A stretch of 64,000 bases of DNA from an uncultured Gemmatimonadota bacterium (GTDB lineage Bacteria > Gemmatimonadota > Gemmatimonadetes > Palauibacterales > Palauibacteraceae), in NCBI GenBank assembly GCA_913043255.1, contig CAJWLK010000002.1, positions 186,001-250,000 on the forward strand, written 5' to 3'. The position numbers and the translations under genes were made by a program. Under the pieces are notes generated by a model that searched no databases, had not been told where the DNA came from, and worked only from the letters and a program-made list of their open reading frames with translations. This document shows positions 28,023-40,983 of this stretch, piece after piece. Position 1 is the first letter of the stretch. Each line of letters begins with the position of its first letter.

Positions 28023-28796
28023 CTATTCTTTGGGGCGGATTTCACCTGATGGCCAAAGTTTCACCATTTCGCGCCCATCCCGGATCCAACGAACACTGAA
28101 GGGTGACCCTTGAGAAGCGTTGATGGCTTGTATCAAGTCAGGAACTTGGCGAGTAGGCAGGTTTCCTGCGTCAACCACAACGTCTCCAGACCGTAAGCCT
28201 AGTTTTGCCGCTGCCGTACGTGGTGTTACACGGAGTACAAGAAGACCCGAGCGGCCTTCATAACGACGAACAGGCTCAAATTCCGCCCCCTCGAAAGCAC
28301 TCGTACCTGCCTGTTGTATCGGTGCGCGCTGCGACTCGAGTTCAGTTGGTTCGTTCAAGGCGATTTTATCTTGGACAACGGGCGCCGTGAGGCCAGGCTG
28401 TAACGTGTTTTCGGCAAAAAACCCAATTGGCCCCGGAAGCTGAAGCCCCGCAAAAACACCAACCGCAAAAACGAAAACGGCAACGGTAACGGCCAACTGG
28501 CGCGAACCGAAAATGAGACGAGAGCGCCCCGCATGCCACCCAAATCCTAATACGCTTTGGTTGATCCGAGGCTCCTTTGAATCCAATTTCGCCTCGATTG
28601 CCGTCCACTCATCGGCCGGAGGGTCCAAGTCCGGCAGTGCCGATAGCGCCATGCGAATACGGCTAAACCGTTCAAATTCCGCCCTGCACTCCTCGCACGT
28701 TTCTAGATGTAACCAATCCTCTTTGTCCTTCCGTGGCTCATCGAGCAACTCAGAGATTTGCTCTGCTGTCAGATGTTCCGACGCCGATTGATTCAT
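28023..28796 (-). CDS. zinc-finger anti-sigma factor with C-terminal PDZ-like domain
   Basis: HLETCEEC (HxxxCxxC), TM VTVAVFVFAVGVFAGLQL, then LLVLRVTPRTAAAKLGLRSGDVVVDAGNLPT PDZ-like; start MNQSASEH at 28796. Confidence 0.75.
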   Translation of the reverse strand: MNQSASEHLTAEQISELLDEPRKDKEDWLHLETCEECRAEFERFSRIRMALSALPDLDPPADEWTAIEAKLDSKEPRINQSVLGFGWHAGRSRLIFGSRQLAVTVAVFVFAVGVFAGLQLPGPIGFFAENTLQPGLTAPVVQDKIALNEPTELESQRAPIQQAGTSAFEGAEFEPVRRYEGRSGLLVLRVTPRTAAAKLGLRSGDVVVDAGNLPTRQVPDLIQAINASQGSPFSVRWIRDGREMVKLWPSGEIRPKE

Positions 28797-28821
28797 CTGT
28801 CTATACCGTTCACCAAAATTC

Positions 28822-29412
28822 CTACAAACTCGCTTTATCGCGCATGTCATCATTACTCGAACTCACGGGTTGCATTAGTTCGCGCATTCGGGCTCGAGCT
28901 TTGTGTAACTGTGATTTCGACGTGCCGGGAGAACAGCTAAGTGACCGAGCAATTTCCTGGTGGGTCCAGCCCTCAACATCATGTAGGACTAAGACACGGC
29001 GATATCCTGGGGGCAGTTGATCAATCGCTTGTATCAAAACATGCCTTGCGACAATCACGTCGTCCTGAGCTTTCGTGATACGTGGAAGATTGGCTCCAGC
29101 TTCTACGGAGCTTCTCTTCGATGAACGCCGCAAATGATTGAGTGCTACATTGGTCGCCAAACGGTACAACCAGGTCCCAAATGCAGCTTCACCCCTGAAT
29201 AACTCAAGTTTCTCGAACGCCCGGACCCAAGCTTCTTGTGAAAGATCTTCAGCAAGCTGATCGTTTCCTACTAAACGACGTACAGCGGTATATACTCGAC
29301 GTGCGTGAAGTTCATGCAGTTCACCCATCGCGGAGCGGTCACCTGCTTTTGCTCTGGTGATCAGATTGTCTTCTTCCACGCAGTTCCTCGCTACACTGCT
29401 CTCCGACATCAC
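28822..29412 (-). CDS. ECF-type RNA polymerase sigma factor
   Basis: DLSQEAWVRAFEKLELFRGEAAFGTWLYRLATNVALNHLRR and VLVLHDVEGWTHQEIARSLSCSPGTSKSQLHKARARMREL. Confidence 0.93.
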   Translation of the reverse strand: MMSESSVARNCVEEDNLITRAKAGDRSAMGELHELHARRVYTAVRRLVGNDQLAEDLSQEAWVRAFEKLELFRGEAAFGTWLYRLATNVALNHLRRSSKRSSVEAGANLPRITKAQDDVIVARHVLIQAIDQLPPGYRRVLVLHDVEGWTHQEIARSLSCSPGTSKSQLHKARARMRELMQPVSSSNDDMRDKASL

Positions 29413-30299
29413 TCCGTTGGATACCTCGATCCCATCACAGGTTGCCTAGGGCCGAAAAACCCAAAGAGTCTTCGGTCGAATCTCCAGATCAAAACGGCCA
29501 ACGCAAACCCGGCCAACGCATCGATTGCATAATGGAACCGCCCATAGACGGTACCTAAAGCAAGGGCGATCTCCGGAATGATCAAAAGCCAGAACCATCG
29601 TGCATCTTCGCGTGCTGCACCCAGAACAGCCGCTAGAGATGCTGCAATATGAGAACTCGGGAAAGCGGCACCCTTAGAAGAGCCACTCTCTAAAATCGTG
29701 TGCACCAACCCATAAAATGCACCCTCGCTAATTGGTCCTTCAATCCGCGCAAACTCATACCGAGGTCCGGCAACTGGGAAAACCATAAAAATCAAATAGC
29801 AAGCAAAAAATGCGGTGGCGACTACAAACGCGGTGCGGTGTAGCGCTGCAAAACCTTTGGTACAAAAAACCCCAATCAGCGCTATCGGGACTATACCGTA
29901 GTACCCAAAATAAGCGAGGTGAAGCACTTCGGAGAAAGGCAGCCACGGTAACGCGGAACTAAGCTCAATGCTGGGTTGACCCCCAAAAATTTTGGCATCC
30001 CAACTTTGTACTAACCCATCGAAAAAACTTTCCGTAAAAAAACGATTCAGCGTAGCAATTTCGGCATATAAAACGGGCGCCAACGCCACTGGATACGAGA
30101 CTCTTAGAAAACCGAGAAGGCCGTTTTCCGGGCGCCAGCGTGCCAGTGGCGTAATCGCCAGATAAGCGACCGCATGGATTCCGGCGATGACTAACCCCGT
30201 CATCCCACCAAAAACTACAGCAAAGATGGCGGTAACTCCCAAATAAACCCGAGTTAGCCGATCAACCGGCAATAATCCCTGAGCGTCTGTCACATCCAT
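29409..30299 (-). CDS. PAP2 superfamily membrane protein (Aur1/Ipt1-like PAP2_3 type)
   Basis: AAFPSSHIAASLAAVLG and YGRFHYAIDALAGFALA; multi-TM; ATG at 30299 overlaps upstream stop. Confidence 0.8.
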   Translation of the reverse strand: MDVTDAQGLLPVDRLTRVYLGVTAIFAVVFGGMTGLVIAGIHAVAYLAITPLARWRPENGLLGFLRVSYPVALAPVLYAEIATLNRFFTESFFDGLVQSWDAKIFGGQPSIELSSALPWLPFSEVLHLAYFGYYGIVPIALIGVFCTKGFAALHRTAFVVATAFFACYLIFMVFPVAGPRYEFARIEGPISEGAFYGLVHTILESGSSKGAAFPSSHIAASLAAVLGAAREDARWFWLLIIPEIALALGTVYGRFHYAIDALAGFALAVLIWRFDRRLFGFFGPRQPVMGSRYPTE

Positions 30300-31285
30300 C
30301 CCGCTTGGCGATACCAAACAAACGTACGCGACATCCCGTCGTTCAGCTCCACTCGTGGCTTCCAACCTTCAAGGAGCCTTCCCGCCTCTTCAATGTCACA
30401 TGTCCATGAATGGTGGCCGATGTCTCGTACTTTTTTCCGGTCCACCGCCGGCAATCTGCCCACAAGTTTAGCCCCAAGCTCGGACACGAGACCCGCCGCC
30501 CTGAGAAAGGCCATGGGTACTCGAACCACGCGCACTCCATCTCCAACCGCAGCTCCCACCACCTGCGCCAAATCCTCCCATCGATGTTTTTGAGCTCCTG
30601 CTATCTCGACCGGCTTATCCACCGTCGGTGCTTCTATTGCTGCGACAGTTGCCGTCACAACATCTGAAACGTAGGCCGGTTGAAGTGGCACCTCGCTTCG
30701 CGGGACTACCACCCACCCTCGCCTTGCCATCTGAAACAAAGGTAGGAGTGCCGAGTCGCGTGCTCCATAAATACCACCCGGTCGGAGAACAAAAGTCGCC
30801 ATATCGCCTTTATTTTCCTCTAACCATCGCTCGCCCAAGAGTTTAGAACGACCATAGGGAGTCACAGGTCCACGCGCGCCATCCGGTCCACGCGCTGCGA
30901 GACTGCTGATATATACAAACCGAGCAACCCCTGCAGCGGAGGCAGCTTTCGCCAATTCTGCAGTACCCGCTGCATTCACCGCCATAAACTCATCTTCATT
31001 GCGTGCACTTGTTAGCCCACCGCAGTGAATCACAACCTCAACGCCCTCGAGAGCTTTGGCTGGCGTTACACTTCCTTCAATAGATCTAGGCTCTTCGGCT
31101 GCACTAGACTGTAAAGCCTGCCTGGCTGTACCCAAATCCAGTTCAACAGTTTCCACATCAACGGAATCGATCCACCTCCTATTGCTCGTTCGTCGAACAC
31201 TGCACCGGACCTTATGACCATTTTTCACCAATGCTTCAGCAATATGGCTGCCGAGAAAACCTGTTGCCCCCGTTAGGAAAATCAT
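30290..31285 (-). CDS. NAD-dependent epimerase/dehydratase (CerR-like candidate)
   Basis: MIFLTGATGFLGSHIAEALVKNG Rossmann, YGRSKLLGE (YxxxK); next to Spt-like gene. Confidence 0.85.
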   Translation of the reverse strand: MIFLTGATGFLGSHIAEALVKNGHKVRCSVRRTSNRRWIDSVDVETVELDLGTARQALQSSAAEEPRSIEGSVTPAKALEGVEVVIHCGGLTSARNEDEFMAVNAAGTAELAKAASAAGVARFVYISSLAARGPDGARGPVTPYGRSKLLGERWLEENKGDMATFVLRPGGIYGARDSALLPLFQMARRGWVVVPRSEVPLQPAYVSDVVTATVAAIEAPTVDKPVEIAGAQKHRWEDLAQVVGAAVGDGVRVVRVPMAFLRAAGLVSELGAKLVGRLPAVDRKKVRDIGHHSWTCDIEEAGRLLEGWKPRVELNDGMSRTFVWYRQAGWM

Positions 31286-31308
31286 GGTAAAGCGATAAAG
31301 TAAAGCAC

Positions 31309-32454
31309 TTATAAGGGAATTTCATAGAGGCGGTAGGTGCGGTACATCTGACCCCCAAGACGCTTGATTGAGGCGTTCATCTTGTCATTATCCTCAAGAA
31401 TCCAAGACTGCTCCCCCTGTGTGATCCCAACCTCTCTTCCAGCTCGAATCAGGCCGAGATAAAGCAGAACATCGATCCCCTTCCCACGCCACTCCTCTAC
31501 AAGCCCAAGAATGATCACCCGCATCCAGTTGATACGGCGCTTTGCGATGAGCGCCTTAAAAATACCAAAAGGCCATAGCTTGCCATCCATCTTCTTGAGA
31601 ACCTGGTTGAAGTCTGGTAAGGCTAGTGCAAAACCAATTGGTACCCCGTCTGAATCTTCAACAAACAAGGCAAGCTTCGGTTCCAAGATCGGTTTGAGTT
31701 CAGCTGCCATATGATCAATCTCTTCATCCGTCATGGGTACAAAACCCCAGTTCTTCTCCCATGCCGCATTATAGATCGACCTGACCGTCTCCAACTCTGT
31801 ATCGAACTTAGCCATGTCGAACGACCGCATCGTGATGCCATAGCGGCGTGTTACAAGTTTTTCTCCTCGCAACAAGTACCCCATGTCCATTTGATCGTCC
31901 ATTTGCCAGGCATAGAGATCTTTTACTTTTGTGAGACCACACGCTTTCAAAAGGTTGGGATAATACTTGGGGTTGTATGCCATCATGACGGACGGCGGAC
32001 CTGGTTCACCATCCACAAGCAAACCACATGTCTCGTTTGTGGAGAAGCTCGTCGGACCTCGCATGATCTTGAGATCACGGAAACGGAGCCATTCTCGAAC
32101 TATATCGAAAAGGGCCGCCGCCACCTCAACATCGTCCACACATTCAAACCATCCGAAGAAACCCACCGGTTCCTCATGAAACGTTTCATGATTACGGTTA
32201 CGAATAGCGCATATTCGCCCAACAGGTACCGAACCCCGAAGTGCCAGAAATGGCTGTGCCTCCGAGTGCTTATGAAAAGGATGTTTTTCATGATCGAAAG
32301 CATTTCGCACATCTGACTTCAGCGGAGGAACCCAATGCGGATCGTCACCATAGATAGACCAAGGCAAGGCGATGAACTGGTTTAGTTCTTCTCGCGTCAC
32401 GACCGGGATCACTGTGAGTGCAGACGAAGGATGCGACGTCATGAGGTTGCCCAC
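31309..32454 (-). CDS. YghO-like GNAT-fold N-acyltransferase (bacterial ceramide synthase candidate)
   Basis: FIALPWSIYGDDPHWVPPL...PVGRICAIRN...GFFGWFEC...MRGPTSFSTNETCGLLVDG typical of the YghO-like family; next to Spt-like gene. Confidence 0.7.
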   Translation of the reverse strand: MGNLMTSHPSSALTVIPVVTREELNQFIALPWSIYGDDPHWVPPLKSDVRNAFDHEKHPFHKHSEAQPFLALRGSVPVGRICAIRNRNHETFHEEPVGFFGWFECVDDVEVAAALFDIVREWLRFRDLKIMRGPTSFSTNETCGLLVDGEPGPPSVMMAYNPKYYPNLLKACGLTKVKDLYAWQMDDQMDMGYLLRGEKLVTRRYGITMRSFDMAKFDTELETVRSIYNAAWEKNWGFVPMTDEEIDHMAAELKPILEPKLALFVEDSDGVPIGFALALPDFNQVLKKMDGKLWPFGIFKALIAKRRINWMRVIILGLVEEWRGKGIDVLLYLGLIRAGREVGITQGEQSWILEDNDKMNASIKRLGGQMYRTYRLYEIPL

Positions 32455-32503
32455 ATTGTGAGGCGTTCTAGCTGATCGGTCGCACGCTTACGCACCCGAT
32501 CCG

Positions 32504-33754
32504 TCAGACGATGTCGAGTTTTTTAGCTACGTGGTGGACCTGGTCAAGTACAAAATCAAGTTCTTCGTCAGTGTGAGTCGCCATATAGCTCGTCCGCAGA
32601 CGACCCTGGCCTTCGGGAACTGCTGGGGGCACAACTGGATTGGCAAACACCCCTGCCTCAAACAGTGCTCGTCCAAACTGAAGGGTCTTCTCCATAGGGC
32701 CGATAAGAATTGGCACGATCGGAGTCTCGGTGGGTCCGATGTCAAACCCAATTGATTTGAACCCTTCCATCATTTTGTACGTGTTTGCCCACAACCGTTC
32801 ACGCCGCTCTGGCTCTGAACGAATGATCTCGAGGGCTTTGAGCACCGTTGCTACCGATGCCGGCGGCATACTCGCACTAAACATCAAGGCTCGCGCATGA
32901 TTCCGAAGATAATCAATCACATCGGCCTTTCCGGCACAGAACCCTCCGATCGAAGCAAATGATTTCGAGAAAGTTCCGAGGATAAGGTCGACCTCATCCG
33001 TTAGGCCCCAGTGTTCGGCCGTCCCGGCTCCGGTTTCGCCAAGAACACCAACGGCATGCGCATCATCAACGACAAGAGCCGCCCCAAACTCACGTTTAAG
33101 CGCGACCAATGCCGGAAGGTCGGCGATGTCACCCTCCATACTGAAAACACCGTCGATAGCAATTAGCTTTCCACGTTCCGGCTTGTCAGCTTGTAGCATC
33201 CTATGGAGACTTGTGTAGTCTCCGTGGTTGAAGCGCTGCACGCGGCCCAGACCCAAACGGACACCGTCTTGAATGCTCGCGTGATCAAGCTTATCCACAT
33301 ATACGGTGTCACTGCGTCCTATCAATGCACCTAACGTTCCCACATTGGTCTGATATCCAGTGGAAAATACCAATGCCGCTTCCATGCCCACGAAATCTGC
33401 CAACTCTTCTTCAAGACGATCATGTAGATCAAGGTTTCCGTTCAGAAAACGACTTCCTGTATTCCCGCTACCAAATGTGTCCAGTGCATCACGTGCAGCT
33501 TCGAGAATTCGTGGGTCGTGTGTGAGCCCCATGTAATTATTAGAGCCCACCATGATCTTCTTTTCCCCTTCGATCACTACATAGGTATCATGCGATTCCT
33601 CGATGGGCATAAAGTAGGGGTAGAGCCCAATTGCCCGCAGTTCACGCGCACGCGTGAACGCTAGACATTTGGCGAAGATCTCCGGCAGCGGGCTGGCGGC
33701 TGCAAGCAGAGGCTCCGAATGCGATCTGGCGGCCTGAGGTGTGCTATTAGTCAC
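32504..33754 (-). CDS. alpha-oxoamine synthase (serine palmitoyltransferase/KBL-like)
   Basis: GSNNYMGLTHDPR, GSGNTGSRFLNGNLDLHDRLEEELADF, DDAHAVGVLGETGAGTAEH, GTFSKSFASIGGFCAG. Confidence 0.88.
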   Translation of the reverse strand: MTNSTPQAARSHSEPLLAAASPLPEIFAKCLAFTRARELRAIGLYPYFMPIEESHDTYVVIEGEKKIMVGSNNYMGLTHDPRILEAARDALDTFGSGNTGSRFLNGNLDLHDRLEEELADFVGMEAALVFSTGYQTNVGTLGALIGRSDTVYVDKLDHASIQDGVRLGLGRVQRFNHGDYTSLHRMLQADKPERGKLIAIDGVFSMEGDIADLPALVALKREFGAALVVDDAHAVGVLGETGAGTAEHWGLTDEVDLILGTFSKSFASIGGFCAGKADVIDYLRNHARALMFSASMPPASVATVLKALEIIRSEPERRERLWANTYKMMEGFKSIGFDIGPTETPIVPILIGPMEKTLQFGRALFEAGVFANPVVPPAVPEGQGRLRTSYMATHTDEELDFVLDQVHHVAKKLDIV

Positions 33755-33984
33755 AATTCAAAGCTAAGCAAAGTTCACAGTTTTGGGCAAGCAAACCAAG
33801 GTGTCAGTTCAATCTCTCGGAGATTATAGCCCTCTCCTCCTCTTTAGATGAACTCGAGAAATTTCGTTCCTTGATCATAAGCCCTATCGCGGCCCAAGGC
33901 AGCTCAGTTCACCTTACAAGGGCCTGAAGGCCCGAGGCACCGTCGGGAGAAGTAAGATACTTTCGGCCCATCGACGGCCTAATC

Positions 33985-35514: not shown

Positions 35515-36351
35515 CTAGGAGACACGCGAAGTTCCTGTATAAACATTAAATCCTTCCTCCTTGGCAAACCCAACTAGGGTCATACCGAACTCGCTCGCCA
35601 CATCCACCGCGAGGCTCGAAGGGGCACCGACTGCTACAATAACAGCAATACCTGCCATTAGAGCTTTTTGCATAATCTCGAATGAAGCTCGACCACTGAC
35701 TGCGAGAACCGATTCCTTGATCGGCAAACCGTCTTCGAGAAACCGGTTCCCAATCACTTTGTCCAGCGCGTTGTGCCGACCCACATCTTCACGGAGAATT
35801 TGGATGTCCCCGTCAGCGTTGAACAACCCCGCTGCGTGGAGGCCTCCGGTGCGTTCAAATATTTGTTGCCCTTCTCTAAGCACGCTTGGTAATGTTTGGA
35901 TTACCTGACTCTTAATCACAGGCCCATCCTCAATAAGAGACGTGCACCCTTGTATCTCGATCGCCTCCAGTGACGCCTTTCCACATACTCCGCAGCTCGA
36001 GGTGGTATAAAAGTTTCGAGTCAGATCAGTGGGGTTGAAACTCGCACCCTCACTTAGCTGCACAGTCATAACATTGTATTCCTGGACATCCACATTGGTG
36101 CAGTATCGAAGATCCAAAACATCGGACCGCCGTTGAATCAAACCTTCCGAGAAGAGGAATCCGGTGGTAAGGTCAAAGTCGTCGCCTGGGGTACGCATGG
36201 TAACGGCTACCTGGTGCTCGTCACCTTGCGGTGTAGCCAAGCGGATCTCGAGTGGTTCCTCAACCGCTACCGCATCTCGGCGATTGCGGGATGATTTTCC
36301 AGCAAAACGATTGACGTCTATGCGCACCATGCTGCGACGAGGAGAGATCAT
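35515..36351 (-). CDS. fdhD: formate dehydrogenase accessory sulfurtransferase FdhD
   Basis: EEPLEIRL, RTPGDDFDLTTGFLFSEGLI, TTSSCGVCGKASLEAI, REDVGRHNALDKVIG. Confidence 0.93.
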   Translation of the reverse strand: MISPRRSMVRIDVNRFAGKSSRNRRDAVAVEEPLEIRLATPQGDEHQVAVTMRTPGDDFDLTTGFLFSEGLIQRRSDVLDLRYCTNVDVQEYNVMTVQLSEGASFNPTDLTRNFYTTSSCGVCGKASLEAIEIQGCTSLIEDGPVIKSQVIQTLPSVLREGQQIFERTGGLHAAGLFNADGDIQILREDVGRHNALDKVIGNRFLEDGLPIKESVLAVSGRASFEIMQKALMAGIAVIVAVGAPSSLAVDVASEFGMTLVGFAKEEGFNVYTGTSRVS

Positions 36352-38271: not shown

Positions 38272-40983
38272 TTGGACCGGAATCAATACGACTACGAGAT
38301 TACGCTCGATGGCGAACGTGTCCCCGTGACTCGTGGAGAAACCATCTACGAAGTTTCAGAACGCCACCGCAAATCAATCCCCACGCTGTGCTACGATCCA
38401 CGTCTCGAACCGCTCGGGGCGTGCCGACTTTGCATCGTGGAGATTGAAGGTGCCCGAAACCCAGTCGCCTCTTGTACGACTGTCGCGCAACCAGGTATGA
38501 AAGTCACAACCAAGTCCGCTCGCCTCGAGATGCACCGTCGCGTACTGATGGAGATGGTCGGGTCTGAGAATCGGGATCTCGATGTTGATCCACTATCAGG
38601 TTATGCGTCAGATGAGATGGCGACACTGCTCGATCGGTACGACGCACGAACAAAACGCTTTGCCGGGTCCAGATCGGGTACGAGCCGACCAGACGACGAC
38701 AATCCTTTTATCCTGCGTGATTACGAAAACTGCATCTCCTGTTACAGGTGTGTACGCGTCTGCGCGGAACAGGAAGGAGACTATGCGATCTCGATGATGA
38801 ACCGTGGATTCGAGACGCAAATCACCACCGAATTTGAAGGATTGCTCAAGGACTCTGCATGCACATTCTGCGGACAATGCATACAAACCTGTCCAACTGG
38901 TGCACTCGCCGATGTGAAAGCACTTGCAAATAAAGATGTGCCGGGCGAAACAGAGAAAACGCGGACTGTGTGTCCTTATTGTGGAGTGGGTTGCTCCGTC
39001 GATGTTATGACGCGAGATGACAAGGTCGTCGGGATCCTACCTGCTATGGATGGTCCCGCCAACAAGGGTGCGTTATGTGTCAAAGGACAGTTTGCATTTG
39101 ATTTTGTTTCACACCCTGAACGACTCGCCGCCCCGTTAGTCCGTGGTGACGATGGTGAGCTCCATGAGACCGATTGGGATACGGCACTCGATCGAGCGGC
39201 AACTGGATTCGCGCAGGCCGCCGAAAATCATGGACGACAATCAGTCTATGGGATCGCATCCGGGCGGGCTCCGCACGAAGCTGCTTACATGATGCAACGG
39301 TTCATCCGAGGGGGGTTCGGAACCAATCAAATTGATAACTGCAGCCGTGCCTGACACGCTCCTACGGTCGCCGGTCTGGCGGCCTCTATCGGTCGAGGAG
39401 CCATGTCGAACCCACTCGATGACATGGAAAAACCTGATGTAATTTTTTGCATTGGGACAAATATGACCGAATGCCATCCCGTTGCTGCCACGCGAATCAA
39501 GCGTGCTATCGCCAAAGGGGCGAAACTGATTGTGGCCGATCCTAGGCAGGTTGCGTTGGCAGAGCTCGCCGATATCCATCTGCCACTACGAGTCGGTTCC
39601 GATGTTTCGTTGCTCCTCGCAATGGCTCATGTCATTGCGAGGGATGGATTGGTGGATGAGGCGTTCCTGGAAGAGCGAACCACAGAAGGAACCAAATTTC
39701 TCGATCATGTTGCCGAGTACCCACCCGAGTGGGCTGAATCAATCACTGGAGTTGATGCCAAACTTATCGAACAGGCTGCACAATGGTACGGGGCAGCGGA
39801 GCGCGGTGCCATCTACTACACGCTCGGGATTACCGAACATATTTGCGGTGTCGATAATGTTCAGAGCCTTTGTAACCTGGCCCTGGTCACGGGAAACATT
39901 GGTCGGGAAGGCACTGGAATTAATCCGATGCGGGGGCAAAACAATATCCAAGGGGCAGGAGACTGCGGAGCACTACCCAACAATTATCCAGGATTCCAAT
40001 CGGTACTGGACCCTGCCAACCAGGCCAAGTTCGCAGAAGCCTATGGAAAAGAAGTTGATCTTGAACTTGGGCCGACAAAGGTCCAGGCTTTGGATATGTG
40101 CGGAGACTTAATCCGTGCCATGATTATCAACGGTGAGAACACGGTTGTTACTGATCCCGACCGAGAACACTGTGAACACGCACTCAAAAGTCTTGATCAT
40201 TTTGTTGTAATTGACATTTTTCTCACCGAGACAGCGAAGCTCGCCGATGTCGTGCTTCCAGCGACAGCATGGGCCGAAACAGATGGCGTCTGCGCTAATA
40301 CCGAGCGGCGCGTACAACGACTTCGGAAAGCAGTAACCCCACCGGGTGAGGCAAAGCCAGATTGGTGGATTGTTTCGCGAATCGCCCAACGTATGGGGCT
40401 TGAAGGCTTCACATTTAACTCCGCAAAAGAAGTGTTTAATGAACTTTGCGGACTTTCGCCGATCTACGCTGGCCTCGACTGGGATCGAATCGAACGAGGG
40501 GAGTACCTATGGCCAGTACCTCATAAGGAGCACAAGGGAACGCCGATCCTTCACCGCGGAGAGTTCGAGAACGGTCGCGGAATATTCCAACTGATCGAAT
40601 ATAGGGACCCCGCGGAGACAATCTCACCAGAGTTCCCCGTGTGGCTCACCACGGGGCGTCGCCTTGCAGCCTATCACACCCGAACTCAAACTGGGCGGTC
40701 AGCGGGGATTGACTACCTATTATCAGAAGAAACCCTAGAGGTTAATCCCAGCGACGTCGCAACCTGGGGGCTTGAAGATGGCGGTTGGTGTACACTCACA
40801 AGCCCTCGGGGATCTGTCAGGGTGAAAGTTGAATCCAACAAACGCTCTCCACCCGGAACGGTGTTTGTAAGTTTTAGTTTTGATGATGTTCCGGTCAACG
40901 TTCTTACCGGTGGAGGCTACGACCCTGTGACTCACACTGCTGAACTGAAGGTGTGCCCAGTTCGCGTGGAACCGTCCTTATAA
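38272..40983 (+). CDS. fdhA: formate dehydrogenase alpha subunit, selenoprotein (UGA 39352-39354 as Sec, residue 361)
   Basis: ORFs 38272..39354 and 39403..40983 are in the same frame with no stop except the TGA: NQIDNCSRA-U-HAPTVAGLAASIGRGAMSNPLDDMEKPDVIFCIGTN; N-terminal [2Fe-2S]/4Fe-4S motifs and CPYCGVGC molybdopterin oxidoreductase motif. Confidence 0.95.
39366..39384 (+). promoter_or_regulatory. candidate bacterial SECIS hairpin of fdhA
   Basis: GGTCGCC-GGTCT-GGCGGCC (7 bp with one U.G), starting 12 nt after UGA; loop GGTCT matches the GGUCU core of the E. coli fdhF SECIS loop as recalled. Confidence 0.85.

Follow-up and report, generated by a model that had tools for sequence, protein, structure and literature searches.

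A putative ceramide operon with an Aur1-like gene and an adjoining sigmaE-like sigma/anti-sigma module in the order Ca. Palauibacterales (Gemmatimonadota)

In Caulobacter, ceramide is synthesized by enzymes of the Spt, bCerS, and CerR types and is converted to ceramide phosphoglycerate (PMC11087976; PMC11324152), and bacterial cerS has been reported to lie always in a different operon from the de novo genes (PMC11324152). In Bacteroides thetaiotaomicron, phosphoinositol dihydroceramide is the product of the Aur1 homologue BT_1522, and the BT_1522-1526 genes place an Aur1-type enzyme, a CDP-alcohol phosphatidyltransferase, and a myo-inositol-phosphate synthase (MIPS) in one genome (PMC9246714). 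On the regulatory side, the E. coli RpoE/RseA/DegS system combines an RpoE-type ECF sigma factor and a membrane anti-sigma factor with periplasmic PDZ domains (PMC8103513), while class I zinc-type anti-sigma factors carry an HxxxCxxC helical domain followed by a transmembrane (TM) helix (PMC7406223). Features of all these systems were found side by side in a stretch of 64,000 nucleotides (the window) from a Gemmatimonadota genome (2.45 Mb, 93.9% complete) of the order Ca. Palauibacterales, in the description of which sphingolipids, ceramide, inositol, and sigma factors are all unmentioned (PMC10469786).

The six open reading frames given in the preliminary description were all present on the minus strand in the order claimed there: spt, bcerS, a cerR-like gene, a PAP2-superfamily gene, an ECF sigma gene, and an anti-sigma gene. 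The three enzyme types Spt, bCerS, and CerR are common to this locus and the Caulobacter pathway, whereas here bcerS is the middle gene of the three in a single string and the Aur1-like gene comes next, so that the predicted ceramide operon, Aur1-like gene included, forms one string. The gap between spt and bcerS was 61 nt with the ATG at 32442 or 49 nt with the alternative GTG at 32454, and that between bcerS and cerR (likely ATG at 31285) was 23 nt; the PAP2 gene (likely ATG at 30299) overlapped cerR by 10 nt and shared one base of its stop codon with the sigma ATG (TGATG at 29409), and the likely ATG of the anti-sigma gene (28796) lay 25 nt past the sigma stop. Such spacing is compatible with the single transcript proposed earlier, but a conserved internal promoter precedes the sigma gene. 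An Rfam search of the window gave no match.

The locus is probably best explained as two modules, an account that we hold, as a whole, with moderate confidence. Module 1, spt-bcerS-cerR-aur1-like, would be transcribed from a promoter before spt (P1) and would make ceramide in the manner of Caulobacter and then attach a phospho-head group to it, for which phosphoinositol from phosphatidylinositol is the likeliest candidate. Module 2, comprising the sigma and anti-sigma genes together with, in relatives, a gene for a secreted two-PDZ protein, would be transcribed from an ECF promoter (P2) and would constitute a sigmaE-like envelope-stress circuit, in which the membrane-bound HxxxCxxC anti-sigma factor holds the sigma factor, periplasmic PDZ domains read the signal, and the sigma factor thereby released switches on its own genes as well as htrA. 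Because the two modules overlap, we infer that transcription of the lipid genes runs on into sigma and anti-sigma, which would lead to their co-production. The gene content, the conserved gene order, the promoter motifs, the fusion described below, and the likeness to Aur1 are observations, whereas the enzyme activities, the link between sigma and its motif, the signal, and the read-through are predictions.

The product of the fourth gene (29409-30299, minus strand; 296 aa), a membrane protein labelled PAP2_3 by Pfam (PF14378), was matched best to AUR1 by both a sequence profile and an AlphaFold2 model. With a profile of 41 relatives, yeast AUR1 was the top match over profile positions 18-281 of 292, and the AFPSxH (AFPSSH/AFPSLH) and HYxxD motifs of the two lined up. 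The model (pLDDT 94) likewise retrieved AUR1 first in a fold search (TM 0.61/0.64, E 3e-5), the best phosphatase being a Bacillus PAP2 phosphatase (TM 0.43/0.60, E 0.07). With an Aur1 fold and His/His/Asp catalytic motifs both present, Aur1-like (inositol phosphorylceramide synthase fold) is a more fitting label for the protein than PAP2 phosphatase. The preliminary description had allowed for either transfer or removal of a phospho-head group; the Aur1 likeness favours the former, and removal becomes the less favoured activity. It is a substantial possibility, though the less probable one, that the protein acts as a phosphatase on lipid phosphates or moves a head group other than phosphoinositol, as the catalytic core of the PAP2 superfamily also matches phosphatases such as PgpB/YodM; these matched the gene-4 profile in its C-terminal core only, however, whereas AUR1 was best by profile and by fold and over the whole length.

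Our first guess for the product of this Aur1-like enzyme is inositol phosphorylceramide, based on the AUR1 match, the BT_1522 precedent, and a MIPS gene adjoining a CDP-alcohol phosphatidyltransferase gene in the same genome, a pair also adjacent in 29 of 30 relatives. The co-occurrence of MIPS was discarded as proof of inositol ceramide, since the gene does not discriminate, being carried by 75 of 80 class members including ones without sphingolipid genes. In comparison with BT_1522-1526, the Aur1-like gene here stands within the ceramide operon with the MIPS pair elsewhere, the phylum is another one, and a PgpA-like PIP phosphatase was looked for and not found. From this assignment, inositol-type sphingolipids would be expected in an uncultured marine order of wide distribution.

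The sigma gene (28822-29409, minus strand; 195 aa) encodes an ECF sigma factor of the RpoE/AlgU type (PF04542, PF08281; PDB matches sigma-H and RpoE), which adjoins a membrane anti-sigma factor; counting it, the genome gave five ECF-type matches. Its co-occurrence with the lipid genes held across the order: of the 35 Palauibacterales loci that could be read, 33 had sigma and anti-sigma behind the lipid genes, a conservation of gene order far above chance. By group, the linkage was seen in 14/14 loci of the same genus, 13/15 from the remaining genera of the family, and 6/6 of the sister family, the last figure including a locus whose contig stops within sigma (L053); a locus masked at this place (L052) and contigs ending too early were not counted as readable. 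Both loci lacking a linked sigma gene (L040 and L045) belong to genus g4 and retain the lipid genes. None of 14 other Gemmatimonadota operons inspected had an adjacent sigma gene, two of them having a weak ECF match at least 1.4 kb downstream.

These distributions bear on how closely the two modules are coupled. That they are neighbours by descent only and functionally uncoupled seems somewhat unlikely: their separate promoters, the sigma-free lipid genes of genus g4, and the 90-460 nt, in some cases holding a small additional ORF, that part the Aur1-like and sigma genes in several genera would all agree with it, but the lipid-sigma block has been kept in two families while the flanking icd and fdhD genes are retained in the genus only, and in the window the Aur1-like and sigma genes overlap by 1 nt. 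At the other extreme, a dedicated lipid-envelope feedback circuit, in which the sigma module would sense sphingolipid or outer-membrane status by means of PDZ domains that act on the anti-sigma factor directly (on a separate two-PDZ protein in relatives, fused here), with no dedicated site-1 protease, and would be co-produced with inositol phosphorylceramide synthesis order-wide, is a doubtful extension of the two-module account. In one genus (L088, L090, and L093), an ORF of about 100 aa with a likely TM segment was observed between the Aur1-like gene and sigma.

The lipid operon had been proposed to be regulated by its own sigma factor, and the promoter motifs did not bear this out. A search for an ECF motif upstream of 33754 found no P2-type motif before spt; directly before this gene lies instead P1, a sigma-70-like promoter (TTGCC-N19-TAGCTT; 33761-33790, minus strand) conserved in the genus, the exact pattern of which occurred once per genome, always at spt, in 14 of 16 genus members. 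Related sites were found at the same position across the order, other Gemmatimonadota carry TTGTG..TA..T in its place, and the spacing of P1 predicts a leaderless GTG start of spt. The ECF-type promoter P2 (GGCAACCTGTGATGGGATCGAGGTATCCAA; 29417-29446, minus strand) is located within the 3' end of the Aur1-like gene, just upstream of sigma, where it is conserved with the consensus GGCAAC-N17-YRTCNAA. A slightly looser form, GGCAAC-N17-NNTCNA, was present upstream of sigma in 25 of 33 regions, which are not independent, 14 being from one genus, and was absent from all 164 regions upstream of the other five genes (0.02 expected).

P2 was the sole copy of its motif in the window, and the whole genome contained three, namely at sigma, before an htrA/degP protease gene with trigger factor encoded next, and at C1:452883, the last of which was dismissed for want of a convincing gene behind it. 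The htrA copy was also found in genome G004 and, with one extra spacer base, in G020, but at full stringency the motif preceded only 3 of 30 htrA homologues, a point against the proposed circuit; none of the other four ECF-type matches of the genome stood at a motif copy. As the other meaningful copy precedes htrA/degP, the sigma factor looks sigmaE-like rather than a dedicated lipid regulator, and the promoter layout suggests a lipid operon that possibly reads into an autoregulated sigmaE-like module rather than one driven by sigma. It is unlikely that sigma controls the lipid operon via P1 or another promoter, with ceramide lipids as an envelope-stress output. Although order-wide linkage and the unusually good conservation of P1, once per genome, would suit such control, the sigma-70-like TTG/TAnnnT form of P1 and the similar sites at this position in Gemmatimonadota without the ECF gene speak against an ECF promoter there, and a GGCAAC-type motif was absent from all 30 spt regions. 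Besides these sites, P2-type motifs were noted before genes for secreted beta-propeller-like proteins in genome G007 (L219 and L221), and a related copy at a contig edge in G009.

As to the ceramide genes themselves, the spt product (32504-33754, minus strand, likely start GTG at 33754; 416 aa) is a serine palmitoyltransferase-like alpha-oxoamine synthase. Its top NCBIfam model was serine palmitoyltransferase CFB with 521 bits, which falls below the curated cut-off of 640 bits for that model, against 396 bits for the BioF model, and its best PDB match was Spt with 437 bits versus 299 for the BioF/Kbl comparison. In a tree, it joined bcerS-linked Spt sequences from many phyla, and E. coli BioF and Kbl fell outside this group with support of 100/98, the branches of these two outgroup sequences being long. 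Pfam gave nothing above cut-off for the bcerS product (31309-32442, minus strand; 377 aa, or longer with the possible GTG at 32454), and we therefore compared it with E. coli YghO, to which it was aligned end to end by hhalign (E 1e-70, 362 columns, 33% identity). The third gene (30290-31285, minus strand; 331 aa) encodes an NAD(P)-dependent epimerase-type SDR (PF01370, E 5.6e-26) and was assigned as cerR-like from its family and its conserved neighbourhood with spt and bcerS. The same three genes were grouped in Gemmatimonadota, Eisenbacteria, Myxococcota, Acidobacteriota, Bacteroidota, Ignavibacteria, Planctomycetota, and others.

From the Spt scores and tree, the YghO alignment, and this cross-phylum gene set, the ceramide reading of genes 1-3 appears well founded at the sequence level. 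The preliminary description thus stood on the three points on which it had staked itself: Spt clustered away from BioF/Kbl, bCerS was assigned by full-length YghO similarity and linkage to spt and cerR, and the sigma genes co-occurred with the lipid genes in relatives. Use of another amino acid (alanine, glycine, or cysteate) by the first enzyme, giving 1-deoxyceramide or capnine-type lipids, is improbable; the score below the curated cut-off and the appearance of cysteate-C-fatty acyltransferase among the PDB matches would allow it, but that enzyme scored 238 bits against 437 for Spt structures, and the operon also holds bCerS and CerR. Separately, lone bCerS genes 62-63% identical to that of the window, with no nearby spt or cerR, were found in L085 (G058) and L101 (JAJDYN010000023.1), reflecting either transfer or binning error, and the Myxococcota ceramide clusters L152, L147, and L177 contain another bCerS-like gene, located behind cerR or close to it.

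The last gene of the string (28023-28796, minus strand; 257 aa) encodes an anti-sigma factor with an HxxxCxxC domain, which is retained in relatives, one TM helix, and a C-terminal PDZ domain (PDZ_6, 30.7 bits). In relatives, a PDZ-free anti-sigma gene is followed by a seventh gene for a secreted two-PDZ protein, and both this gene and the PDZ domain in the window had been overlooked at first reading. A structure model of the fused protein comprised the helical domain, the TM helix, a flexible linker, and a PDZ domain resembling those of DegQ/DegS/DegP. In DNA alignment with the same-genus locus L083, the fusion point fell at 28303-28310 (minus strand), where homology to the anti-sigma gene stops at 28310 and homology to the second PDZ domain of the two-PDZ protein begins at 28303, and a search of the genome for the two-PDZ protein gave no match besides the fused PDZ. 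An in-frame deletion of about 1 kb has evidently joined the anti-sigma factor to the second PDZ domain. The fusion, seen in one assembly, is an argument for action of the two-PDZ protein on the anti-sigma factor in relatives and suggests that the two act together; as a natural fusion pointing to the PDZ partner of an anti-sigma factor, it makes the signalling hypothesis directly testable. An assembly artefact is very unlikely, for although the fusion comes from a single MAG and the nearest relatives (about 68% identical in bCerS) are unfused, the join is clean, in frame, at a domain border and inside a 309-kb contig, and the remainder of the two-PDZ gene is nowhere else in the genome.

The module thus resembles the E. 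coli RpoE system in its RpoE-type sigma factor, membrane anti-sigma factor, periplasmic PDZ domains, and predicted htrA/degP target, but differs in that its anti-sigma factor is of the HxxxCxxC type and that the PDZ domains reside on the secreted two-PDZ protein or the anti-sigma factor rather than on a locus-encoded site-1 protease. No site-1 protease of the DegS type was encoded in the locus, and the two-PDZ proteins of L083, L046, and L093 had no protease domain. In E. coli too, degS lies outside the rpoE operon, so that the missing protease says more about how the circuit would work than about whether it belongs to the sigmaE-like systems. The anti-sigma factor shares the arrangement of class I zinc-type anti-sigma factors, from which it differs by the C-terminal PDZ domain gained by fusion. 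In a search that covered mainly openly available papers, we found neither a PDZ-fused anti-sigma factor nor an ECF sigma module linked to a sphingolipid operon, an absence that is a weak sign of novelty.

Beyond the operon, fdhD (35515-36351) lies near a frame for a formate dehydrogenase alpha subunit (38272-40983, plus strand), which is open over 903 aa only when an in-frame TGA at 39352-39354 is read as selenocysteine (context CSRAUHAPTVAGL).
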